Shown: positions 4,745-36,228, numbered from the stretch's first letter. The stretch is DNA of 37,549 nt from Candidatus Bathyarchaeota archaeon (GCA_005881615.1 VBBR01000011.1:26370-63918), one strand, 5' to 3'. Program-made: numbers and translations. The notes: generated by a model not told the origin, from the letters alone.

Positions 4745-5254
4745 TTACGCGAGCAGGTCGGCCAATCTTTCAGCCCATCTCTCCCATACTCTTGGGTGGT
4801 AGCTTCTCAGGAGTGCTAGAATCCTGGCTAAGTCTCCGCTAACGGTGTAGAACACGAACCCGCCTTCTCTCCTAGGTTGTACGAATCCAGCTCTGGATAG
4901 TCTTCCCATGTGCCAGTTTGTTGAGCTCGCGGAGATTCGGGCGAATTCAGAGAGTTCTTTCTGGCTTGCAAGTGGGTTCTTGATGAGGTAGAGTACGAGA
5001 TCTCTCTCAGTTTCTTGGGAGAGAATGTTCAGGATCTCGCGGTCTTGCGCTCCAAGGGCTTTGTCGGCATAGAAGCGTTTGTAGAGGCCGTGGCGAACCG
5101 ATAGTATGCTACGTTCTCGTTCTAGTCTGTACAGGTGGTACTGGATGACACCCATGGCGAGGTTGAGTTCTCGTTTGATCTTTCTCAGATGGGTGCCAGG
5201 ATTCGCTTTGATGAACGCTAGTATGCGGACTCTGTTGGAGTCTTGAATCTGCAC
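4745..5254 (-). CDS. Tandem winged-helix transcriptional regulator
   Basis: A 169-residue DNA-binding protein with two winged-helix domains. The first (about 5-65) contains NPGTHLRKIKRELNLAMGVI with a QYHLYRLERE recognition helix. The second (about 75-145) contains NPLASQKELSEFARISASS with NWHMGRLSRAGFV and a wing QPRREGGFVFYTVS. This duplicated layout is a common archaeal one-component regulator type related to ArsR/MarR-like wHTH. Start is GTG at 5254. It precedes the small membrane protein and is probably cotranscribed with it. An 11-bp direct repeat 45-72 bp upstream is a candidate operator. Target and signal are unknown. Confidence 0.88.
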   Translation of the reverse strand: MQIQDSNRVRILAFIKANPGTHLRKIKRELNLAMGVIQYHLYRLERERSILSVRHGLYKRFYADKALGAQDREILNILSQETERDLVLYLIKNPLASQKELSEFARISASSTNWHMGRLSRAGFVQPRREGGFVFYTVSGDLARILALLRSYHPRVWERWAERLADLLA

Positions 5255-8293: not shown

Positions 8294-8956
8294 TTGCAGC
8301 AGTCCCTCTTAGAGAAATTGGCCCTTTCCGGGATACTACAAGCTGGATTGACTAAAGCCCGTATTGAGGCCCTAACGGACGGGATATTTGCCACGGTCAT
8401 GACGGTTCTGGTTTTGGGTCTAACAGTCCCTGTCCCAAACCTTCCTGAGTCGGAACTTGCTAGTCAAATAAGGGGACATTGGCCAAATTATCTCGCCTAC
8501 GCGTTCAGCTTTATCGTATTAGGCGTGTACTGGATTGGCCACCACAACCAGTTTCACTATATCAAACAGAGCGACAGAGTATTCTTGTGGGTCAACATTC
8601 TTTTTCTCTTAACTATCGGTTTTGTGCCCTTTTCCACATCTCTGCTCGGGCTGTATCCCTTCTCGCCTACTGCGGTTCGGGTCTACGGTGCGAACCTGGC
8701 AGCGACAGGGCTGGCGCTCTACGCTGTATGGTGGTACGCAACGAGCCAGCATCGCCTTGTCGAAAAGGATCTTGACCCTCACATCGTAAGTCTAGCCAAG
8801 AGGCGAATTAGTGTCGGGCCAATAGTCTCTCTACTTGGGATCGGCTTCTCCTTTCTGGATACTCGGATAAGTCTCGTACTCTACCTGCTCCTAATTCCGT
8901 TCTTTATCCGACCAAGCCACATCGATATCCACTTCAGAGAAGGCTCTCACGACTAG
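8294..8956 (+). CDS. TMEM175/DUF1211 family membrane protein, putative K+ channel
   Basis: A 220-residue six-helix membrane protein. The first helix carries RIEALTDGIFATVMTVLVL, the family signature RxxxFSDGVFAIxxTLLVL with Leu and Thr replacing the usual Phe-Ser. TM2-3 contain FIVLGVYWIGHHNQFHYI, also typical. Bacterial and archaeal members form tetrameric K+-permeable channels; the changed FS motif makes conductance uncertain. Start is TTG at 8294 right after an in-frame stop; no ATG is available. It is divergent from the peroxiredoxin. Confidence 0.88.
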   Translation: MQQSLLEKLALSGILQAGLTKARIEALTDGIFATVMTVLVLGLTVPVPNLPESELASQIRGHWPNYLAYAFSFIVLGVYWIGHHNQFHYIKQSDRVFLWVNILFLLTIGFVPFSTSLLGLYPFSPTAVRVYGANLAATGLALYAVWWYATSQHRLVEKDLDPHIVSLAKRRISVGPIVSLLGIGFSFLDTRISLVLYLLLIPFFIRPSHIDIHFREGSHD

Positions 8957-13133: not shown

Positions 13134-14273
13134 CTACTTTCCCCTAGTTCTCTTCGTGGTTTCGCTCGCTGCTTCTTTCAGCAGCCTGTTCGTGCTCTCA
13201 GTGTTTCCTCCCAGCCTGAGGGTTTGTTCATGTTGGTCGGATAGCCGTTTTGTCGCCTCGATAAGATCGGTGCGCCGTGTCTGTTCAGCGTTTGCAGATA
13301 ATTGGTTCATGGTTTTGGTTGCTTCTTTCAGCTGTCCCGCAGCAAGGTGCTGGTAATACTCCTCCAGACCCTGGTAGTATGTGAATTCCGATACAAGGTT
13401 GTTGTTGATTCCTTCCGAGAACTGTTCCTCGTTCCTGGCGACTCTAACCTCTACAGGGGCGCTGATAGTCTTTTTCTTGTCATCGATCGTGTCAGAGTAC
13501 GTGACTTGAATGTTGAGCAGTCTACCGTTGAATCCTGCCGGTATTGGAACACGGCCCCAGATCTTTGCAACCGTCTCCACAGCGTTGATAGAAACCGGTG
13601 GTCCCTTGTAGTTCAGGATCTTGACCTCAGGGGTTCCAAAGTCTACACTTATGTTTCTGGCGCCAACCTCGTTTACCGCGCTCTCCTGCATTAGGCTGGG
13701 GAGCTTGAGTTTCTGGGCGTCCGTGATGTTGTGGAGCATACCACCAGATGCGTCGGCGAGAGCCTTCAAGATCGACTGGTTATAATCTGCGCCGATGCCA
13801 AACTCGATCATTTGAAACCCTGTAGGCATTTTCAGCTTCGAATACTGTTCGGGCTTGGTGACATCTGTGGGTTCACCGTCGGTGAGAAGAACGATCCATC
13901 CGGGTAGGCGGCTCTTCTGCGCTATTTCAAATGCGGACTGGAGCGCTGCGTAGAGAGCTGTCAAACCTGACGCTCTGATCTTGGGGAGAACCTCTGAAAG
14001 CTTGGTTTCAGGATACGCTTGGACGGTGCTTGAAAACAGGACTACAGAGACCATGTTTCCAGAAGGAATACCCTTCACATATTCCTGCGCGCCGTTCTTT
14101 GCAAGCTCGATTTTCTGGCCGTCCATCGATTTGCTAGTGTCGAGGACGATTATGTGGTGGAAGCCTTTCGCTTCCGTACGCCTCTCTGCGACCAGAGTGA
14201 GCTTAAAAATCGCGTCTATCTTCGAATCGTACGAGTAAGTATGACTCAGCTCGGTTCTAGCTGACAGTGTCAT
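13134..14273 (-). CDS. von Willebrand factor A domain protein
   Basis: A 379-residue soluble protein. The vWA domain (about 36-205) has an intact MIDAS: D45-T-S-K-S49, T105 in GLTALY, and D132 in LLTDGEPTD, so it should bind a divalent metal and a partner's acidic residue. Residues about 215-285 look like a beta-sandwich (NISVDFGTPEVKIL, LLNIQVTYSDTID), and the C-terminus (about 290-379) is helical, with many Gln/Glu/Thr. This order resembles inter-alpha-trypsin-inhibitor/TerY-like vWA proteins without a signal peptide. It is the last gene of an operon with the phosphatase (4-nt ATGA overlap) and FHA protein, so it is probably an adaptor or target in that phospho-signalling system. Confidence 0.92.
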   Translation of the reverse strand: MTLSARTELSHTYSYDSKIDAIFKLTLVAERRTEAKGFHHIIVLDTSKSMDGQKIELAKNGAQEYVKGIPSGNMVSVVLFSSTVQAYPETKLSEVLPKIRASGLTALYAALQSAFEIAQKSRLPGWIVLLTDGEPTDVTKPEQYSKLKMPTGFQMIEFGIGADYNQSILKALADASGGMLHNITDAQKLKLPSLMQESAVNEVGARNISVDFGTPEVKILNYKGPPVSINAVETVAKIWGRVPIPAGFNGRLLNIQVTYSDTIDDKKKTISAPVEVRVARNEEQFSEGINNNLVSEFTYYQGLEEYYQHLAAGQLKEATKTMNQLSANAEQTRRTDLIEATKRLSDQHEQTLRLGGNTESTNRLLKEAASETTKRTRGK

Positions 14274-15939: not shown

Positions 15940-18111
15940 TTGCCGCAGTTGAAGAAAACCCGCAGCCTTCCCTTCACGCGGGATTCACTCGGACCGATCC
16001 TCACGGCAGTCCTCTCTGTACCGATAGCGTTCCTCTTCGGTCTGGGAATACAGGGTGATTCCTCAGCTTACATTATTGGACTGGTAAGCCTCGGCGTTCT
16101 GACATCTCTCGATCTGCGGACCGGTGTTTCAAAGGTCGGTGTGGGATTTGCAGTCTCGTTTCTTGCCGCTCTCTATGTTATCGGACATTCTGTGTCCGGG
16201 CAGGGCTTTTCTTCTTTGTCGTTCGGGGACTTGTCCTTGCTCCTCGTCGCTCTTCCCCCATCGATTGGGGTTCTCTTGGCCGGTCTTCTCTTCTCTAGGG
16301 CGACGCCTTACAAGATGATCAAGGCAAATGTCGTAGCGTCCATCGCGTTAGCGGTCGGGCTGGGGTTGGGGTCGGCTTTGCAAGCGGGTTCAGCTTTGTC
16401 AGTAGACTCACTCACCATCGTGTTCTTCATCGCGCTTGGTGTACCTGCGAACATTGCCCAGATGGTTCTCTTCCACTTCCTGGACAAAGTATGGCAGACC
16501 AAGAATCTCTCGATGTCCATGATGCCCACCCTGTTCTTCAGCTTCAACCTGCTTGCCGTCCTAGGGTTTGTAGCTTCTGGAGACTTGAGACAGCTCTACC
16601 CATTCGTCTCTTCGCTTGGATTCTTGCCCGCCTTGGCATTGGTCGGAGCCAGCTCCAGTAATCTAGCGCATAGAATCTTATTGGGTCCTACCCTTGGACC
16701 AACAATTACCATCACGGGAGCGCCTACCGTTCGCCAAGGCAAAGAACAGACAATCAAGATCGCCACCCAATTTGGCGGGCAAGCAAAGAAAATGGCCAAA
16801 ATTGTGGCAACGATAACACGGCCTGGGGGCAAGACTGATTCTCTGAGAGTATCGCAAGTTTCGACGGGAGAGTACAGCGCGCACTATCGGCCAGAGGGAT
16901 CCGGCAGCTACGCTGTACATATTGCTGCAACGAGCAAGGAACACCAGACGGTTAACGAGTCGTTTTCCTTCAACGTCCAGTCTCCTCAATCGAGTCCTCC
17001 TCCGCCGACGATATCGAATCCACCGTCCCCAAGTCGTCCACCGCCTCAGCCTGCAAAACAACCCACGCCTCTCCCACCTCCACCTCCCGCAATACCCTTC
17101 GTTAAAGGCAGTCTCCCGCGGTTGGACAATTGGGACCCGAGAGTCTGGGTGGGTCAAGAGGTTCACAGCTACAAGATAACCGAGCACTTGGCCACAGGGC
17201 TCACAGGGTATGTCTTCCGGGCTAGCTTTGGGCAGGCGGGGACTGAAATGGCAATTAAGATTCCAATCCTCAAAACTGGAACAGGGGCCGCGGCTCTCGA
17301 GGAGACCATGTCCGAAGCCACACGGCTACTGGAGTTGTCGGCGCAGTCGAAATACGTAGTCCAGCTTAGAGGAATCCTAGTGGACCGGCTCAACATTCAG
17401 GAAATCGTGAAAGGCGATACACAGCTCTATCTTCGCAGTCCTCCCGCAATTGTAATGGAATTGATGAAGGGCGGTGCTGCTAAGGGACTTCTGGAAGATC
17501 CTGCGTATGATTCGTTGTATTATTCGGAGAAATGGGGAGGTATTGTCATGCTGATCGGCTCCATGATTGCGACTGGACTAGAGACGATTCACAACGCGGG
17601 CTTTGTCCATCTCGATGTGAAACCGCAGAACATTCTATTCAACCTGCGACCACCCTCTACGGGGCAGGAGATGAGGGACCAGATGAAGTCTGGAACCCTT
17701 GTGCCAAAGCTAGCTGATCTCGGATCCGTCGTCAGGATCGGGGGGAAAGTCGGCCAGTTCACCTCGGAATACGCTCCAGGCGAACAAGTCTTGGGAGAAG
17801 GCGCTACAGCCTCCATGGACATTTACGCGCTAGGAGCAACCATCTACAATATGCTGACAAAAACTCCGTTGAATTCCAAGAAGCTTATTGAATTGATGAA
17901 CGCGACCACTGCTAATCCCGGGTCCGGCAGAATAGCGAGCGATCTGAAGTCGGCTTGGAATTCGTTCAACCCTGATTTCGAGAGGGTTGCCAAGCTCGCA
18001 CCGGCGGTCCCTGTTTTCAAGAAAATGTTGGATAAGGACGCCCGGCATCGACCGTCTGCAGGGTCCGCGGCCGCTTCGCTCCGAGAACTTGGAGACAGAG
18101 CGCTAGCCTAG
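15940..18111 (+). CDS. Membrane-anchored Hanks-type Ser/Thr protein kinase with Ig-like domain
   Basis: A 723-residue receptor-like kinase. Residues about 17-240 contain eight predicted helices; about 253-346 form an Ig/filamin-like beta sandwich (TITITGAPTVRQGKEQTIKI through GSGSYAVHIAATSKEH); about 350-387 are a Pro-rich linker; about 411-720 are the kinase. Kinase motifs: glycine loop LATGLTGYVF, Lys440 in MAIK, helix-C Glu about 459, catalytic HLDVKPQN (H557, D559, K561, N564), DLG (593-595, replacing DFG), EYAPGE (APE-like), D627 in MDIYALG. All residues for catalysis appear present. With an even helix number the Ig domain and kinase are on the same side, presumably cytosolic. The start is TTG at 15940. 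Divergent from the FHA-PPP-vWA operon, its likely partners. Confidence 0.95.
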   Translation: MPQLKKTRSLPFTRDSLGPILTAVLSVPIAFLFGLGIQGDSSAYIIGLVSLGVLTSLDLRTGVSKVGVGFAVSFLAALYVIGHSVSGQGFSSLSFGDLSLLLVALPPSIGVLLAGLLFSRATPYKMIKANVVASIALAVGLGLGSALQAGSALSVDSLTIVFFIALGVPANIAQMVLFHFLDKVWQTKNLSMSMMPTLFFSFNLLAVLGFVASGDLRQLYPFVSSLGFLPALALVGASSSNLAHRILLGPTLGPTITITGAPTVRQGKEQTIKIATQFGGQAKKMAKIVATITRPGGKTDSLRVSQVSTGEYSAHYRPEGSGSYAVHIAATSKEHQTVNESFSFNVQSPQSSPPPPTISNPPSPSRPPPQPAKQPTPLPPPPPAIPFVKGSLPRLDNWDPRVWVGQEVHSYKITEHLATGLTGYVFRASFGQAGTEMAIKIPILKTGTGAAALEETMSEATRLLELSAQSKYVVQLRGILVDRLNIQEIVKGDTQLYLRSPPAIVMELMKGGAAKGLLEDPAYDSLYYSEKWGGIVMLIGSMIATGLETIHNAGFVHLDVKPQNILFNLRPPSTGQEMRDQMKSGTLVPKLADLGSVVRIGGKVGQFTSEYAPGEQVLGEGATASMDIYALGATIYNMLTKTPLNSKKLIELMNATTANPGSGRIASDLKSAWNSFNPDFERVAKLAPAVPVFKKMLDKDARHRPSAGSAAASLRELGDRALA

Positions 18112-27236: not shown

Positions 27237-29090
27237 TTGTCTGATAGGCCGGATTCTGCAGGAAGATACAAGCCCATCAGCGATTATGGAGTAATTGGAG
27301 ATATGCACTCGGCAGCGCTCGTTGGACTAGACGGTTCCATCGACTGGTATTGTGCTCCAAGATTCGACTCTCCAAGCGTATTCGCCGCTCTGCTCGACTC
27401 GCAAAAGGGGGGGAGATTCCGTCTGTCGCCTACAGGGAATTTCAAGACGAAGCAGAGCTACGAGGGCGAAACTAACATTCTATCAACTACTTTCGAATCC
27501 CAAGAGGGAAGCATCAAGCTTACCGACTTCATGCCCTGTTTCATGGAAAAAGGAGAGCTGAAGGTATTTCAGGAAATCCACAGGGTCGTAGACTGTCTAG
27601 AAGGTACTCCTGGGCTTAGAATCACATTCCAACCACGTTTCAATTATGCCCGGGGAAAGACGATCCTAATGGAGACTAGGGAAGGATGTGTTGCAAGGAA
27701 TCAGAGGCATCATCTTAGTCTCGCTTCGTCCCTAAAGCTCCTTGTCTCAGACAAAGACCAATTGGTCAACGATTTCCGGCTGTCCAGAGGACAGAGACTC
27801 ATCTTCGTCCTCAAATGGGGAAACAGCTCGCCAACACACACGGGGAAATACGAAACTAGCAGGAAGCTATCAAAGACACTATCCTACTGGAAGCGGTGGG
27901 TTAGCCACGTAAAATATCAGGGACCATACCGCGCGCACGTCGTAAGATCTTGCCTCGTCTTGAAAATGCTTCAGTATGCCCCGACCGGGGCCATGGTGGC
28001 GGCTGTCACGACTTCGCTACCCGAGAGTATTGGAGCGTTGAGGAATTGGGACTATCGATATTCTTGGATCAGAGACAATGCACTCTCAGTCTGGGCATTG
28101 AGCGAGGCTGGTGCCACAAGAGAAGCCTTGGAATACACAAGATGGATGATCAACGTTCGGCGTCATTCGAAAGAGAAGTTGCAGATAATGATGGGAATTG
28201 GCGGCGAGAGGGAGATCCCTGAGATTACCCTCGACCATCTTGAGGGCTATCGACGTTCAAGCCCTGTCCGAATAGGAAACGCCGCCTATAGACAGATTCA
28301 GTTGGACATTTATGGAATCCTCGCTGATTCCATGTATTATCTTCACCGGGCTTTGGGGTGGACTACTAAGCAAGTGTACGAAAACCTTGTGAAATATTCA
28401 GCGGACCAGGCCGCAGTGGAATGGGAGAAATCCGACAGTGGAATTTGGGAGATGCGTCAAGCTAGACAGTTTGTGGAATCGAAGATGTGGTGCTATGTCG
28501 CTCTAGACCGTGCGATCAAGATAGCAAGAGAGCTGGGATACGACGACGACTGGCGCAGATGGGAACCTGTTAAGAAGAAGATCAAGGGCGAGATTCTCTC
28601 CAATGGATGGTCAAACAAGAAGAAAGCTTTCACAATGGTTCTCGGCGGCGACGAACTCGATGCCGCCAACCTCCTCATGCCACTAGTAGGGTTCCTGCCA
28701 GCTAAGGATCCCAAAATGACATCGACAATCCAGCACATCCGCGAAGAACTTTCCAAAGGCGATCTAGTCTACAGATACAACGTGGATGATGGGCAACTGG
28801 GAAAGGAGGGAGCCTTCACCGTGTGCAGCTTCTGGATGGTGGACTGCCTGACACGGCTAGGAAAGTTGGGCGAGGCCGAGGGACTGTTGAATCAGTTATT
28901 GAAACGGGGTAATCATCTGGGGTTGTACTCGGAGGAAATTGATCCTGCAACAGGTGAAGCATTGGGGAACTTTCCTCAAGCCTACACTCACATGGGTTTG
29001 ATTACCGCCTCTGTTCGTCTTGAAGAGGCACGGCGAAAGACCGGGTTCATGCGTTATGCTCGTGCTCTATCTAACCGAATCGGTGGCTAG
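27237..29090 (+). CDS. GH15 glycoside hydrolase (glucoamylase/trehalase family)
   Basis: A 617-residue inverting glycosidase. The N-terminal beta-sandwich starts YKPISDYGVIGDMHSAALVG with SIDWYCAPRFDSPSVFAALL, the GH15 opening. The (alpha/alpha)6 catalytic domain has LRNWDYRYSWIRDNALSVWA, general acid E405 in SDSGIWEMR and the general-base region LYSEEIDP (E566/E567). No signal peptide, so it is cytosolic. Cytosolic archaeal GH15 proteins include trehalases (Thermoplasma, Sulfolobus) as well as glucoamylases. It is convergent with a trehalose-6-phosphate synthase/phosphatase, which favours trehalase. Start is TTG at 27237; 617 aa is a usual length. Confidence 0.93.
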   Translation: MSDRPDSAGRYKPISDYGVIGDMHSAALVGLDGSIDWYCAPRFDSPSVFAALLDSQKGGRFRLSPTGNFKTKQSYEGETNILSTTFESQEGSIKLTDFMPCFMEKGELKVFQEIHRVVDCLEGTPGLRITFQPRFNYARGKTILMETREGCVARNQRHHLSLASSLKLLVSDKDQLVNDFRLSRGQRLIFVLKWGNSSPTHTGKYETSRKLSKTLSYWKRWVSHVKYQGPYRAHVVRSCLVLKMLQYAPTGAMVAAVTTSLPESIGALRNWDYRYSWIRDNALSVWALSEAGATREALEYTRWMINVRRHSKEKLQIMMGIGGEREIPEITLDHLEGYRRSSPVRIGNAAYRQIQLDIYGILADSMYYLHRALGWTTKQVYENLVKYSADQAAVEWEKSDSGIWEMRQARQFVESKMWCYVALDRAIKIARELGYDDDWRRWEPVKKKIKGEILSNGWSNKKKAFTMVLGGDELDAANLLMPLVGFLPAKDPKMTSTIQHIREELSKGDLVYRYNVDDGQLGKEGAFTVCSFWMVDCLTRLGKLGEAEGLLNQLLKRGNHLGLYSEEIDPATGEALGNFPQAYTHMGLITASVRLEEARRKTGFMRYARALSNRIGG

Positions 29091-29116: not shown

Positions 29117-31327
29117 CTAGGACTTGTCTATCTTATAGAGATCAGAGAGAAGTTGGATAACTTCCCTATGGTTTCTAAGGTTGAACTTTGCAAATGATTT
29201 GGCAAGTCCTACTTTGATCGAATATGCTTGATCTGGAATCGCTTCGAAGAGGTCTTCGTCAGCCCAATCATCACCCATTGCTAGAACGAAGTCGAAGGCT
29301 CTCTCTGACAGGAGCAGTTTCGCGGCCATTCCTTTGTTTATTCCAACGTTTCTCACCTCGATTGATTTACTGCCCTGTAATACTTGGATCTCGGTGTTTT
29401 CAGTGAAGTAGGACAGTTCATCGGCAAGTTCCTTCGATCGGACGTATGCGAGTTCTGGGTCTGCTGCTCGGTAGTGCCAGACAAGGGAGAACTCCTTTTC
29501 CTCTAAGAGAGATCCTGGTAGTCGGTCTTCATAGCCTTGGAGGGTGGGTCGGACTTTTTCCTTCCAGTTGGTTTCTACTTTTATCGTTGGAACCCAGTCT
29601 TTGCCTTTTTGTCTGATCCAGGCTCCATGCTCAGCGACGATTCCTAGATTGAGGGCGCCGAACCACTCTTGCAAGAGGCTTCGATTGCGTCCGCTGATTA
29701 TGACCAGGTTGTTTCGTGGATCTTCTGAGAGCGCATTGAGGACTGTTAGGAGGGTCTTTTCGGGAACTGCTGTTTCGGGACGCGCTTTGAATGGTGATAA
29801 TGTCCCGTCGTAGTCCAGAAAGAGCATCCTGTGTTGTGAGCTGTCGTAGTCTCTGATTATCTTCTCTCTAGTCGCGGCATCGAGTAGCTTAGCACTGAAT
29901 TTCTTCTGTTCTTCTTTGATCGAGTGTAGTTTGTTCGTGAAATCTTGACCCCATCTGATGACATCGTAGCGCTCCAGTCTCGTCTGCATTGCTTGGTTGC
30001 GACGCACTTGTTCTGCCTCAGGCATTTCAAGCGCGGTCTTTATCGCGTCTACTATTTCGGAAGTATCGTTAGGGTTTATAATGAGAGCTTCACCCAGCTC
30101 CTTGGAGGCTCCGGCCATCTCGCTGAGAATCAAGACTCCCTTCTGGTCTATCTTCGATGAAACGTATTCTTTGGCGACAAGGTTCATCCCATCCCTCAAA
30201 GGAGTCACTAGCGCCACATCGCTGATTGAAAAAAGACTCAAAAGTTGATTGTAGGGCAGGAATCTGTACCGGTAAACTATTGGGGTCCAATCAATGGTCC
30301 CATACTTTCCATTGATGTTACCCACTAGCTTGTCGATCTCCTCCTTCATCTCGTCGTAATGTTCTGCTCCAAGTCTTGATGGCACAACCGACAAAACTAG
30401 GACGACCCTCCGTTGCCATTGAGGGTACCGCTCGAGAAATATTGCGTAAGCTTCCAGACGATGTTTGATCCCTTTGGTGTAGTCAAGCCTATCTTGGGAT
30501 AGTATTATCTTTCGATTACCAAGTCTCTCGCGGAGACCGCGGCCCTCTTCCTGAATATCGTCACTTATGGCTGCGTTACGAATCTGGCGATAATCAACGC
30601 CCATCGGGAAAGTATCGACTTTTATCGTCCTTTCTCCTCCAATAAGGACCTGGCCGAAGCTGTGTTCTTGGCCGAGGATTCGGAGAATGCATCTGAGGAA
30701 GTGCTGTGTGTAGTCTATTGTGTGGAATCCTATCAAATCAGCTCCAAGAATGCCTTCTAGTATATCGCTGCGCCACTTGGTTGGGAGCGTGCGGAAGATA
30801 TCGTACGAGGGGAAGGGGGTGTGGAGGAAGAACCCGATTGACAAGTCAGGAACCTTCTCTCTCAACAATTTAGGGAGAAGCATGAGATGATAGTCGTGGA
30901 CCCAGACGGTATCGTTGGGTTGGTACACACTCAGGACGGAATCTCGAAACGCCTCATTCACTTTCACGTACTGAGCCCAGTCTGCCTCCCGGAACTTTGC
31001 GTGTGTAGGAAAATAATGGAACAGGGGCCATAGCGTACTGTTGCAGAATCCGCGGTAGAACTTTTCCATGGTATCAGCGTCGAGAAAAACAGGCGAGGCC
31101 TTGTGTTTCGCAGCCCTTGTTCTCAACTGTTCGCGCGAGCCCTCCTCCACCTCCATACCGGGCCAACCGACCCACAAGTAATCGGATCCTGAGGCGCTTT
31201 GTTTGGCCCAGTCTAGATACGCGGTTAGTCCTGAGACCAGGCCACCCGGGCTCGCGTGAAAGACTAACTTATTGTCGCGATTGCTGACCGTGAAGGGCAG
31301 TCTGTTAGATACGACTAGAAGGGTCAT
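29117..31327 (-). CDS. otsAB: Bifunctional trehalose-6-phosphate synthase/phosphatase
   Basis: Two enzymes in one chain that make trehalose from UDP(or ADP)-glucose and glucose-6-phosphate. The GT20 synthase (about 1-470) has VSNRLPF, PGGLVSGL, WVGWPG, HDYHLMLLPKLLR, LHTPFPSYDIFRTLP, SQDRLDYTKGI (277-287) and RDGMNLVAKEY (378-388). The HAD phosphatase (about 495-735) has nucleophile DYDGTLSPF (505-513), VIISGRN and the acidic motif MGDDWADEDLF. All key residues are intact. Fusions with the synthase first are known in archaea, bacteria and eukaryotes. ATG start. Ends 26 bp from the GH15 gene end, so the two are convergently arranged. Confidence 0.96.
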   Translation of the reverse strand: MTLLVVSNRLPFTVSNRDNKLVFHASPGGLVSGLTAYLDWAKQSASGSDYLWVGWPGMEVEEGSREQLRTRAAKHKASPVFLDADTMEKFYRGFCNSTLWPLFHYFPTHAKFREADWAQYVKVNEAFRDSVLSVYQPNDTVWVHDYHLMLLPKLLREKVPDLSIGFFLHTPFPSYDIFRTLPTKWRSDILEGILGADLIGFHTIDYTQHFLRCILRILGQEHSFGQVLIGGERTIKVDTFPMGVDYRQIRNAAISDDIQEEGRGLRERLGNRKIILSQDRLDYTKGIKHRLEAYAIFLERYPQWQRRVVLVLSVVPSRLGAEHYDEMKEEIDKLVGNINGKYGTIDWTPIVYRYRFLPYNQLLSLFSISDVALVTPLRDGMNLVAKEYVSSKIDQKGVLILSEMAGASKELGEALIINPNDTSEIVDAIKTALEMPEAEQVRRNQAMQTRLERYDVIRWGQDFTNKLHSIKEEQKKFSAKLLDAATREKIIRDYDSSQHRMLFLDYDGTLSPFKARPETAVPEKTLLTVLNALSEDPRNNLVIISGRNRSLLQEWFGALNLGIVAEHGAWIRQKGKDWVPTIKVETNWKEKVRPTLQGYEDRLPGSLLEEKEFSLVWHYRAADPELAYVRSKELADELSYFTENTEIQVLQGSKSIEVRNVGINKGMAAKLLLSERAFDFVLAMGDDWADEDLFEAIPDQAYSIKVGLAKSFAKFNLRNHREVIQLLSDLYKIDKS

Positions 31328-33046: not shown

Positions 33047-34564
33047 TTGACATCTGCCTCCAACTCGCCTAAGAGTCCAGTCGAGGATAGGGTAGCGACC
33101 GGTGTTGAGGGATTTGACAATCTAATCGAGGGCGGTTTTCCACGAGGTGACCTCATTCTTCTGGCCGGTCATCCCGGTTCGGGCAAGACGATGTTCTCCT
33201 CACAATTCTTGTACACCGGAGCAATCCAGTATGGGGAGCCTGGGATCTACGCGTCTTTCGCCGAAAATAGGGAAGCGTTTCTGCGAAATATGCGAAGGGC
33301 CAATATGGATTTTGAGTCGCTAGAGCAGAAGAATCTGTTCAGATTCATCGACTTCGTCACCGTAAAAGAACAAGCAATTGACGCTGCGCTCGCCACGATT
33401 ATGGCTGAAATTGACTCTTTGAAGGCGAGTCGTCTCGTGATAGACTCTTTCTCGGCGATGGCCCAGGCCTTTTCCGAAAAGATCGATGCACGAATCGTCC
33501 TTCATACGGTTCTAGGGAGAATGACTCGGCTTAGCAAGGTAACCACCTTGCTCATTGCTGAGAAGCAGCTTGGGTCAGAGTCCCTCGGAGGCGGAATGGA
33601 AGAGTTCGTCTCTGATGCGGTTTTGGTCCTGACGCAATCGATGGAGCGGGGTCATATGCGAAGGCACTTCGACATCGTCAAAATGCGTGGAACCGGAGCA
33701 AGCAGAGCCCGACTGACCTATGATATCACAGAGCACGGTATTGTTGTTCACCCCTCGCTTGAGGCTCACCCCGCAGCTCGAGTCTACAGTGAAAGGGTAA
33801 GCACTGGCGTTGAGGGGTTGGATCGAATGTTAAGCGGAGGCCCGTACAAAGGCTCTACAATTCTTGTTATGGGCGAAGCTGGAACTGGAAAGACAACTAC
33901 GGCTCTGCAGTTCATGATGCGGGGGGCAGCAAACAAGGAGAGGACTCTCTACGTTTCTTACGAAGAATCTCAAGAGGAATTGATTAGACAAGCACTGGGA
34001 TTCGGTTGGAGGATTAACGACCACATCGAAAACGGGCTGGTCAGGATCGCATCCTTCTTTCCTGAACCGTATAACATCGACAACATCTTCGCTGATACCA
34101 GGAAACTAATCGATGAGTACCAGCCGACAAGATTCGTTCTTGATAGTCTCACAAGCCTTGAGCGGGCGATGAGCGATGACGAGTTCTTTCGGGTTGTCAG
34201 ACGAATGGAGTCGCGGTTCAAAGGAGAGGGTGTGACAGCACTCGTTACGGCCCGTAATACTGATGGAGGTCTTCCGTCAGATTTCTGGGTCTCTTCACTA
34301 ATGGACGTAATAGTTTCCCTTAGACAGGTCGAGTCGGAAAGCGCCCTGAGAAGAGCTCTTGTCATCTTCAAAGCTAGAGGTCTACCTCACGACACTAGTA
34401 TCAAGGAGTTCGAGATCGGCCCCAAGGGGATCGTTGTTGAAGAAAAGTTCGCTGACATCGAGCAAATTCTAGGGGGTTCAGCGAGGAGGCCGGCAAGGGT
34501 ACAGGCTTGGAGCGACGCTTTCTCAGGCGCTCCACGACAATCAAGGTCTGGAGCTAAAGGATGA
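33047..34564 (+). CDS. Tandem KaiC-like (RecA superfamily) ATPase
   Basis: A 505-residue double-KaiC protein. Domain 1 (about 13-235) has Walker A GHPGSGKT (41-48), and Walker B in SRLVIDSFS; domain 2 (about 248-470) has Walker A GEAGTGKT (276-283), YVSYEESQEE with a catalytic-Glu-like pair, and RFVLDSLTSL. Both begin with the typical R-V-(A/S)-TGVEG-(F/L)-D motif. The C-terminal about 40 residues are basic and disordered. Cyanobacterial KaiC is the circadian ATPase; archaeal homologues without KaiA/KaiB act in signalling (for example FlaH/ArlH and others). Here it heads a cluster with an 8-TM protein and two NitrOD5-like proteins, suggesting a signal-transduction ATPase. TTG start at 33047; no nearby ATG. 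Confidence 0.94.
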   Translation: MTSASNSPKSPVEDRVATGVEGFDNLIEGGFPRGDLILLAGHPGSGKTMFSSQFLYTGAIQYGEPGIYASFAENREAFLRNMRRANMDFESLEQKNLFRFIDFVTVKEQAIDAALATIMAEIDSLKASRLVIDSFSAMAQAFSEKIDARIVLHTVLGRMTRLSKVTTLLIAEKQLGSESLGGGMEEFVSDAVLVLTQSMERGHMRRHFDIVKMRGTGASRARLTYDITEHGIVVHPSLEAHPAARVYSERVSTGVEGLDRMLSGGPYKGSTILVMGEAGTGKTTTALQFMMRGAANKERTLYVSYEESQEELIRQALGFGWRINDHIENGLVRIASFFPEPYNIDNIFADTRKLIDEYQPTRFVLDSLTSLERAMSDDEFFRVVRRMESRFKGEGVTALVTARNTDGGLPSDFWVSSLMDVIVSLRQVESESALRRALVIFKARGLPHDTSIKEFEIGPKGIVVEEKFADIEQILGGSARRPARVQAWSDAFSGAPRQSRSGAKG

Positions 34565-34623
34565 ACCTCGGCATGACCCAGTTCTGTCTTGTTTCACACC
34601 AATAGGGAGCTGTCATCAATTTG

Positions 34624-35418
34624 ATGAGTTTCAACCTACGAAAGCTTGGAGTTGCACCGCTGCCAGTCGCAGCCATATTGGCCTTGGGGTTTGGGGTTTT
34701 TGGGATCGGAGAAGAACTGATCTTCCCCTCAGTTCTTCTTGAGGTTATACTCAACGTCTTCCTCATTCTAGCGATTTCGGTTGTCGTCGCGCGAATTTCA
34801 GTCAAGAGTTTCTTTTCAACAGGCTCCTTGAACGTTCTATTGCTCGGAACTGCAGTCCTCGCATTTGGCACGATGGCAACTCTCGGAGGCGCCGTCAGCA
34901 GCATCGACGTCAACAAAGGAATAGCTGTATACGGCTTCGGGGCTATCACTGCCGGAGGGCTTCACTTGGCAAGTGCCGTACTCACATATCGTGGTAGTCC
35001 TCGGCGGGCTACGCGCCTGAAATTAAGAGCGGGAGCATGCTACATCGGAACGATCACCTTCCTTACCACATTGTCAGTGCTGGCGATTGACTCTATTCTT
35101 CCGGCGAGTTTCGGTGAGCCCGGTTCGATTATCCAGCGAGCCTCGGCTGCTACGACGGTGTTGCTGTTCACAATCTCGGCGATACTGTTCTCTAGGGTTT
35201 ACCTTCGATCTCACAATCCAATCCTCTATTGGTATAGTCTCGGTCTGTGGGCGACCGCTGTAGGGTTTCTCTCGTTTTTTGCTACGAAGGGAAATGGAGA
35301 CCCACTGCTTTGGACAGGAATAGCCAGTGTTTGCGTGGGCAGTATCTATTTTCTCTTCTCGATACTTGCCGTTCCGAACCTGCGAAGCAATAGGAAACCG
35401 CCGGAACACTTGAGCTGA
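34624..35418 (+). CDS. Eight-helix membrane protein, sensor-like
   Basis: A 264-residue polytopic protein with eight predicted helices (about 12-34, 38-60, 71-93, 101-122, 136-155, 172-190, 199-217 and 226-247) with short loops and a short polar tail (SNRKPPEHLS). No transporter motif is seen. The topology resembles the membrane sensor (MASE-type) modules fused to archaeal histidine kinases, but the output domain is absent. The next gene starts only 4 bp after its stop, so the two are translationally linked; the small NitrOD5-like protein may be its detached output. TTG at 34621 precedes the ATG chosen. Confidence 0.75.
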   Translation: MSFNLRKLGVAPLPVAAILALGFGVFGIGEELIFPSVLLEVILNVFLILAISVVVARISVKSFFSTGSLNVLLLGTAVLAFGTMATLGGAVSSIDVNKGIAVYGFGAITAGGLHLASAVLTYRGSPRRATRLKLRAGACYIGTITFLTTLSVLAIDSILPASFGEPGSIIQRASAATTVLLFTISAILFSRVYLRSHNPILYWYSLGLWATAVGFLSFFATKGNGDPLLWTGIASVCVGSIYFLFSILAVPNLRSNRKPPEHLS

Positions 35419-35422
35419 AAAA

Positions 35423-35794
35423 ATGGATTCCATGTCCGAAACCGACTTCAAGTCGAGTATCATGAAATGCATTGATTCTGGGCTAGATGTGCTTGGAGAT
35501 GTGTCCAAGCAAGTTGTATATTCCTATCTCGCCCAGAATCAGTTAAGCAAGGAGATGATTCCTGACGAGCCCTGGAAATTCACTGAGACTCTCAAGAGTC
35601 TGTTTGGGCGAGGAGAAGAAGTATTGGAAAAGACGATTGTGACGGAACTAAAGCGGACCTTCAACATAACGTCTGGCGGGGGAATGCTCGTGGAGATATT
35701 GGCAGCTGTGAGGCTTAGGAAGGGGTCTGTCGGACAGGGTAGAGAGATTCATGGACTGACCCGCAAATCGCGTGGTTCCGTGGGTGTAAGCTAG
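35423..35794 (+). CDS. NitrOD5-like small signalling-output protein
   Basis: A 123-residue soluble helical protein. CIDSGLDVLGDVSKQVVYSY, then LAQNQLSKEMIPDEPWKFTE, LKSLFGRGEEVLEKTIVTEL match the pattern of the Nitrosopumilus output domain 5, found at the end of thaumarchaeal sensor proteins. NitrOD5 function is unknown. A 40-residue basic Gly/Arg tail follows. It sits 4 bp after the 8-TM protein and 53 bp before a divergent paralogue. ATG at 35432 is an alternative start. Family identification is by eye and deserves a profile search. Confidence 0.7.
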   Translation: MDSMSETDFKSSIMKCIDSGLDVLGDVSKQVVYSYLAQNQLSKEMIPDEPWKFTETLKSLFGRGEEVLEKTIVTELKRTFNITSGGGMLVEILAAVRLRKGSVGQGREIHGLTRKSRGSVGVS

Positions 35795-35847
35795 GTCTAG
35801 TTCTCAAAAAGGCCGGACGAGAAACGCGAGCGCCTAACATTGCTCTC

Positions 35848-36228
35848 ATGCATGAGACAATAGCTCTATGCTTCGGAGAGGTCTTGCAAAACGCTGGACC
35901 TGGCGTGAAGCAAGTAGTCGATCGCTTCCTGACAAAGGCGGGAATCTCTGAGTTGGATATTTCGACAAGGTTCGGAGATGTTGAGAGAGTTGTTACTGGA
36001 GTCTTCGGGGCTGGTGGAAAGATTATGATCGTTTCCACCTTATCGAAAGTCTGTGATGAATACTCGCTAAGCTTGAACGTATCATATGCGACTTCGTTAC
36101 ATGATCGGCTTGAACAGTTGAAGGAGAGAATTCTTGTCGAAAAGTTGGTGCCCAAGCACTATCGGAGGGCTGTAGAGACGACCACTTTTGAGGACAAAGC
36201 TGGCACTCACGCACCCTGGACAGACTAA
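35848..36228 (+). CDS. Second NitrOD5-like small protein
   Basis: A 126-residue helical protein that aligns by eye to the preceding gene: CFGEVLQNAGPGVKQVVDRF with CIDSGLDVLGDVSKQVVYSY, ISELDISTRFGDVERVVTGV with the KEMIPDEPWKF segment, and FGAGGKIMIVSTLSKVCDEY with FGRGEEVLEKTIVTELKRTF. The N-terminal Cys and the FGxG pair are shared. The C-terminal half (LHDRLEQLKERILVEKLV) is an amphipathic helix not seen in the first copy and could be a coiled coil. Probably an old tandem duplication with diverged partners. ATG start. Confidence 0.7.
   Translation: MHETIALCFGEVLQNAGPGVKQVVDRFLTKAGISELDISTRFGDVERVVTGVFGAGGKIMIVSTLSKVCDEYSLSLNVSYATSLHDRLEQLKERILVEKLVPKHYRRAVETTTFEDKAGTHAPWTD

Follow-up and report, generated by a model that had tools for sequence, protein, structure and literature searches.

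A double KaiC ATPase, a stand-alone 8-TM sensor-like protein and two Death-domain-like adapters as a putative signalling module in soil Bathyarchaeia

Background

In 2017 Makarova, Galperin and Koonin reportedly described, in mBio, archaeal KaiC proteins as hubs of signal transduction with DEATH-like adapters. Here we analyse a stretch of 37,549 nucleotides (the window; contig C87 of the 2.23 Mb genome G000) from soil Bathyarchaeia, in which four co-directional genes encode a double-domain KaiC ATPase, a protein with eight transmembrane helices (8-TM protein) and two small adapter-like proteins, N1 and N2. We favour, with somewhat better than even confidence, reading these genes as a membrane-to-cytoplasm signalling module, a split relay of sensor, ATPase and output. 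Compared with the KaiC/Death-domain-like signalling systems predicted so far, the set is likely to be a variant whose new elements are a sensor domain shared with histidine kinases, as the constant partner of KaiC, and a partner-specific KaiC tail as the proposed contact. Its features (window coordinates, strand and the evidence used) are:

33047..34564, + strand: double-domain KaiC ATPase, 505 amino acids (PF06745 match, alignment with Synechococcus elongatus KaiC, multiple alignment of neighbours)
34508..34522, + strand: W-S-D-A-F, residues 488-492 in the C-terminal tail of KaiC, proposed docking peptide for the 8-TM protein (correlation of W-x-x-A-F tail and partner)
34621..35418, + strand: stand-alone 8-TM membrane sensor protein, MASE3-like, 265 amino acids (MASE3 matches of the family, AlphaFold model, N-terminal position in kinases)
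35423..35794, + strand: N1, small all-alpha adapter, Death-domain-like (NitrOD5-related), 123 amino acids (NitrOD5 match, profile match to PH0832/2P9X)
35848..36228, + strand: N2, diverged N1 homologue, Death-domain-like, 126 amino acids with a C-terminal extension (hhalign against the N1 family, AlphaFold match to 2P9X)

The hub role proposed for KaiC is cited in PMC5847659, and our comparison with the 2017 hubs follows the descriptions given in citing papers (PMC5847659, PMC6393860). As described there, KaiC genes are linked with small all-alpha Death-domain-like proteins and each genome has many KaiC paralogues, as is the case here, whereas the set in the window differs in its constant membrane sensor family, common to histidine kinases, in its partner-specific KaiC tail and in its host, a soil member of Bathyarchaeia. 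A KaiC gene also adjoins that of a Death-like protein in the KaiC-DEATH-domain pair of archaeal type IV pilus loci (arCOG01174/arCOG03758, PMC4858521), but around the set no pilus genes were found, and there are two adapters and a membrane sensor. With cyanobacterial KaiABC the set shares a double KaiC whose CII half keeps the Glu pair and has Ser at the phosphosite positions, as well as, by proposal, an input partner that acts on the C-terminal tail of KaiC (PMC6378743); unlike in KaiABC, that partner would be an integral membrane protein, the adapter fold is unrelated and KaiB was not found in eight genomes. The MASE3 and 8-TM sensor histidine kinases have the same kind of 8-TM input domain fused to or beside PAS-HisKA-HATPase, whereas here the domain is free-standing and its partner is KaiC. 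Finally, NitrOD5 (PF11537) of Thaumarchaeota is likewise a small stand-alone all-alpha domain with many copies per genome, but N1 and N2 fall below Pfam's cut-off, belong to Bathyarchaeia and are operonic with KaiC and a sensor.

Results and discussion

The four-gene set and its conservation

N1 starts 4 bp past the stop codon of the 8-TM gene. Measured against G001, the nearest relative, all four genes have non-synonymous rates (dN) of 0.04-0.11 and synonymous rates (dS) of 0.5-0.8, and because the resulting dN/dS is only ~0.05-0.15 we consider them genuine coding genes under purifying selection. The order KaiC, 8-TM, N1, N2 is retained in G001. G002 has it too, but with an additional small adapter separating N1 from N2, while in G012 it is the same up to the end of the contig, which lies inside N1. 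At L118 8214-8558 (UBA185) a third small gene of adapter-like type lies between N1 and N2; the window does not have it.

A sequence-only reading of the window had claimed four co-directional genes, among them a double KaiC ATPase and an 8-TM protein without an output domain, and had put forward the gene order as a check. The open reading frames were found where it had placed them, two PF06745 domains and an end-to-end alignment with Synechococcus KaiC bear out the double ATPase, Pfam finds no output domain in the 8-TM protein, and the order in relatives is as given above. What did not hold was its Thaumarchaeota frame: the named relatives that sequence comparison brought up belong to 'Candidatus Bathyarchaeota', and the sample names of several take the form 14_0903_16_40cm.

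The association of KaiC with the 8-TM protein extends beyond the four-gene arrangement. Twelve loci with a stand-alone 8-TM gene were found in the genus/family-level group, and KaiC lies directly upstream in 11 of these, as a double-domain protein in four (G000, G001, G002, G012) and as a single-domain protein in seven (G014, G009, G011, G007, G010, G020 and a second G000 locus on contig C44). The twelfth (G005:C60, L024/L159) has lost KaiC, but immediately 5' of its 8-TM gene a relic of the KaiC tail persists (AFAKNKQKHS followed by a stop codon).

The 8-TM protein as a sensor domain

The Pfam family MASE3 (PF17159) is matched by 9/13 members of the 8-TM family (best E 1.8e-9), and the window protein itself gives no more than a weak match to 7TMR-DISM (E 0.017). 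Its AlphaFold model consists of eight long helices (predicted local distance difference test score, pLDDT, 77.5), with the structure predictions resting on shallow alignments (10 rows; window plus related loci). Only GPCR-type helix bundles appeared in a PDB fold search, with template-modelling scores of ~0.5 or less and E > 0.01, which we dismissed as a generic resemblance between helix bundles and not homology.

Elsewhere in the phylum, domain scans place the 8-TM domain at the N-terminus of PAS-HisKA-HATPase kinases in G257, G289 and G126, and a long 8-TM-domain protein in G177 is a near copy of the G126 kinase, equal in length. Stand-alone 8-TM proteins also occur next to kinases: in G030 (L122) one has a PAS-histidine kinase on one side and a receiver-domain protein on the other, and at L125 one adjoins a PAS-histidine kinase. 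The G030 genes (L122 1-3101) form an operon-like trio of a PAS-histidine kinase with a W-x-x-A-F tail, the 8-TM sensor and the receiver protein, which has a weak DUF7504-like part. As the domain is fused to or found beside PAS-histidine kinases, we read the 8-TM protein as a sensor input domain with KaiC in the position of the kinase, and it looks as if KaiC has replaced the histidine kinase in this signalling pathway.

KaiC tail type follows the membrane partner

All KaiCs adjacent to an 8-TM gene (11/11) have W-x-x-A-F and then a mostly basic stretch as their C-terminal end, the single-domain KaiCs among them ending for instance in SITEDAANSWALAFAKNKQKHS, while every other KaiC-family protein that was examined in G000 and G014 lacks this tail. 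KaiCs with a 3-TM protein as the next gene have tails of the ..KFMDLFRGAAEKRK type (F-x-D-[LM]-F), and the cores of the 8-TM-type and 3-TM-type single KaiCs are 74-80% identical and intermixed in the tree. The type of tail on KaiC follows its membrane partner.

The motif is also found outside the KaiC family: in G030 the histidine kinase encoded next to the 8-TM gene carries W-x-x-A-F in its C-terminus, STEQITTAWSSAFAEKIGKKAR, past the HATPase domain. With a weight matrix built from ten KaiC tails only, this end ranked first (12.6 bits, next 7.6) of 653 C-termini outside the training set, which include non-coding frames (mean -10.4, standard deviation 4.5). No histidine kinase besides this one turned up in a 238 kb sample of G030, and the motif was present in 0/103 long frames of that sample. 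Since KaiA acts on the C-terminal tail of cyanobacterial KaiC (PMC6378743), input through the KaiC tail has a precedent, and we put the chance that the tail is a docking contact with the 8-TM protein, as the sequence correlation suggests, just short of even. More tentatively, 8-TM receptors might be interchangeable between histidine kinases and KaiC by way of W-x-x-A-F as a common C-terminal docking peptide.

N1 and N2 are related and cluster with KaiC genes

A single-pair BLASTP comparison of N1 and N2 was marginal (E 0.037), but between the profiles of their two families hhalign gives an alignment of 98 columns (E 2.2e-14), and we conclude that the families are homologous. N1 matches NitrOD5 (PF11537) with 16.4 bits (E 0.01), where Pfam's cut-off is 27 bits, and was the sole match in a NitrOD5 search of the whole G000 genome (16.5 bits); N2 has no Pfam match, NitrOD5 included. 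Within the N1 family NitrOD5 is reached by 4/16 members at E<=0.1 (best 1e-3), and one member of the N2 family matches NitrOD2 (E 1.1e-3). PH0832 (2P9X) is the best PDB match by sequence, with E 0.008 for the N1 profile and 0.002 for the joint N1 and N2 profile. When the AlphaFold model of N2 (pLDDT 78.7) was compared with 350,542 PDB chains, 2P9X was the sole good match as well (probability 1.0, target-normalised template-modelling score 0.77, root-mean-square deviation 2.2, E 0.024). As sequence profiles and the N2 model lead to the same structure, N1 and N2 are most likely to share one fold related to NitrOD5/NitrOD2, which have been placed with NitrOD4 in an archaeal 'Death domain-like' family (PMC5847659). 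Because both stay below the NitrOD5 cut-off, we limit their name to 'Death-domain-like, NitrOD5-related'. A search with MetOD1 (PF18546) gave no match, and hits to Tox-MPTase2 on two adapters were below the cut-off or isolated and are read as chance.

The residues shared by N1 and N2 that had been noticed by eye (KQVV, FGxG and an early Cys) are present, and the similarity of the two proteins is backed by their family profiles, while the proposed HMM check against NitrOD5 came out in part, with a weak match for N1, under the cut-off, and none for N2. What the sequence-only reading had named as counting against itself (no NitrOD5 match and no alignment of the two small proteins, or unrelated neighbours in relatives) is not what was found. 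It had also taken NitrOD5 as a domain that ends sensor proteins, and its free-standing, duplicated form as unusual; this was mistaken, since stand-alone, multi-copy NitrOD5 is the rule, with 7 copies in Nitrosotalea, and REC-NitrOD5 the exception (Galperin et al. 2018, PMC5847659).

Several adapter copies are present in each searched genome of the genus. In G000, 7/10 loci of the adapter family lie <=2 kb from a KaiC match, against 0.44 expected, and 5/8 do so when the two adapters of the window are left aside. In five relatives the figure is 3-5 of 9-11 adapter loci, against about 0.4 expected in each. Gene association with KaiC, a trait expected of the archaeal Death-domain-like superfamily, is thus seen as enrichment in six genomes. 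There is also a second recurring cassette, consisting of an N2-type adapter, an N1-type adapter, a winged-helix-like protein of ~100 amino acids (weak HVO_A0114 match, E 0.0025-0.012), a single KaiC with an F-x-D-[LM]-F-type tail and a small 3-TM protein:

L140 4171-6638: second cassette
L145 4811-7408: second cassette
L146 3025-5549: second cassette
L147 2776-5384: second cassette
L149 3491-5402: second cassette, with N1-type adapters

A winged-helix-like protein is also encoded just upstream of KaiC in the single-KaiC 8-TM loci of G009, G014 and G020, with an N1-like adapter upstream of it in G009 and G014. Another membrane protein was seen beside an adapter at L142 2962-4824 (G000:C26), where a 620-amino-acid 7-TM protein without Pfam match lies directly upstream of an N1-type adapter (4821-5198) and near two KaiC genes; by eye only, its soluble half is like inactive KaiC-like domains.

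How far the four genes form one module

Several observations weigh against a single dedicated module joined through the tail. The position of the adapters varies, as they are downstream in double-KaiC loci and upstream in single-KaiC loci. The 8-TM gene is missing from several genomes of the genus, which makes the module an accessory one. G003 and G008 have the syntenic N2 orthologue and a further adapter, with the flanks of G002, without KaiC, 8-TM protein or N1, and because N2 persists there it may have other partners, and the module would be an accessory cassette. Seen in coordinates, L150 5400-6123 and L151 5515-6238, compared with L017 8384-11936, have the N2 orthologue and the other adapter between conserved flanks, which amounts to gain or loss of the module at a single site. 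The window's own locus enters into the co-location counts, and as the genomes are related the counts are not independent. As for the tail, the kinase that neighbours the stand-alone 8-TM protein at L125 lacks W-x-x-A-F, so that the rule linking tail and partner is not universal, and the tail and the 8-TM gene, being neighbours on the DNA, may be passed on together without any binding.

Two alternatives follow from these points. KaiC and the 8-TM protein could be one system, and N1 and N2 could serve other pathways and adjoin it by chance, as may be argued from the multi-copy nature of the adapters in all genomes of the genus, from the several adapters far from any KaiC gene and from the N2 orthologues of G003 and G008. 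The order kept in G001 and G002 (and in G012 to the end of the contig), the strong enrichment of adapters near KaiC genes in six genomes and the N1-like adapters adjoining KaiC in the single-KaiC 8-TM loci of G009, G011 and G014 all speak for a functional link instead, and we regard mere adjacency as unlikely. Somewhat less unlikely, though still doubtful, is that the W-x-x-A-F tail marks common descent of one KaiC lineage with its adjoining 8-TM gene and is no docking peptide: the 3' end of KaiC abuts or overlaps the 8-TM gene, and a single DNA segment could carry both when it moves; moreover, no more than one histidine kinase was seen to have the tail. That kinase is, however, not homologous to KaiC and still stands beside an 8-TM gene, and close KaiC relatives with a 3-TM protein as next gene have the F-x-D-[LM]-F-type tail instead.

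KaiC chemistry and the proposed relay

The window KaiC belongs to the KaiC family by its two PF06745 domains (E 4e-107, 357 bits, cut-off 26.6) and aligns with KaiC of S. elongatus over its full length (E 2e-76), and Walker motifs are found in both halves, CI and CII, in the multiple alignment. In the S. elongatus alignment CII keeps the catalytic Glu pair (EE at 318/319) and carries Ser at the sites that correspond to T426, S431 and T432 (S. elongatus numbering), which makes autophosphorylation in CII plausible. In CI the E77-E78 pair is replaced by Ala-Glu, as it is in G001, G002 and G012, and hydrolysis by CI may be altered.

The end-to-end alignment with a clock KaiC, the CII Glu pair and the Ser residues at the phosphosites would also suit an oscillator, a timing device with Death-domain-like proteins in place of KaiB and the membrane protein in place of KaiA, and a DEATH-domain protein has been proposed as a possible KaiB-like substitute (Makarova et al. 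2016, PMC4858521). However, KaiB (PF07689) had no match in eight genomes of the genus, while the Synechococcus control was positive, which argues against a KaiABC clock. Related modules have a single-domain KaiC, and ~28 KaiC-family genes in G000 (31 domain matches) fit a general signalling family; we consider such an oscillator very improbable.

In the split relay that we prefer, the 8-TM MASE3-like protein would sense a membrane or extracellular cue and bind the W-x-x-A-F tail of the double KaiC, much as KaiA acts on the tail of cyanobacterial KaiC, and it would set the ATP-bound or phosphorylated state of the CII ring. N1 and N2 would then bind KaiC in a state-dependent manner and relay the signal onward. 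The final output is probably transcription, because sister single-KaiC operons encode a winged-helix-like protein between adapter and KaiC. A relay of this kind had been suggested before from the window alone; the conserved set stands and the relay is its best reading, whereas docking, the direction of signal flow, the state dependence of adapter binding and transcription as the output are parts that we infer.

Other genes in the window

The nearest neighbours of the set are genes for trehalose synthesis, a luciferase-like oxidoreductase and a cupin. A fused trehalose-6-phosphate synthase/phosphatase (27237-29090, + strand) is convergent with a trehalase-like GH15 glycosidase (29117-31327, - strand), and a homologue of TMEM175-type potassium channels is encoded at 8294-8956 (E 6.6e-28). 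A Sec23_helical match on a downstream open reading frame of 168 amino acids was below the cut-off or isolated and is put down to chance. A vWA protein with an ArnB C-terminal domain (13134-14273, - strand) lies near a Ser/Thr protein kinase (15940-18111, + strand), possibly an archaellum-type regulatory pair.

These last two genes, 15-20 kb from the set, and the published precedent of KaiC/DEATH-domain pairs at type IV pilus loci (PMC4858521) could point to a regulator of surface filaments or motility. No pilin, archaellum or secretion-ATPase family was found among the window proteins scanned around the set, and its nearest neighbours are of the other kinds named above, and we give this function very little weight.

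Conclusions

KaiC is strongly expanded in archaea, with ~28 genes in the 2.2 Mb of G000. A receptor family that forms part of histidine kinases in certain genomes, and in other genomes is linked genetically to KaiC, offers a concrete KaiC input, and the partner-specific tail is a short, directly testable peptide. If 8-TM receptors are interchangeable between histidine kinases and KaiC, KaiC hubs would have dedicated membrane receptors and be an archaeal counterpart of the histidine kinase, and Death-domain-like proteins would act as its response regulators. If the proposed relay is true, the hypothesis of KaiC as the hub of an archaeal network parallel to two-component systems would become testable with three or four small proteins.

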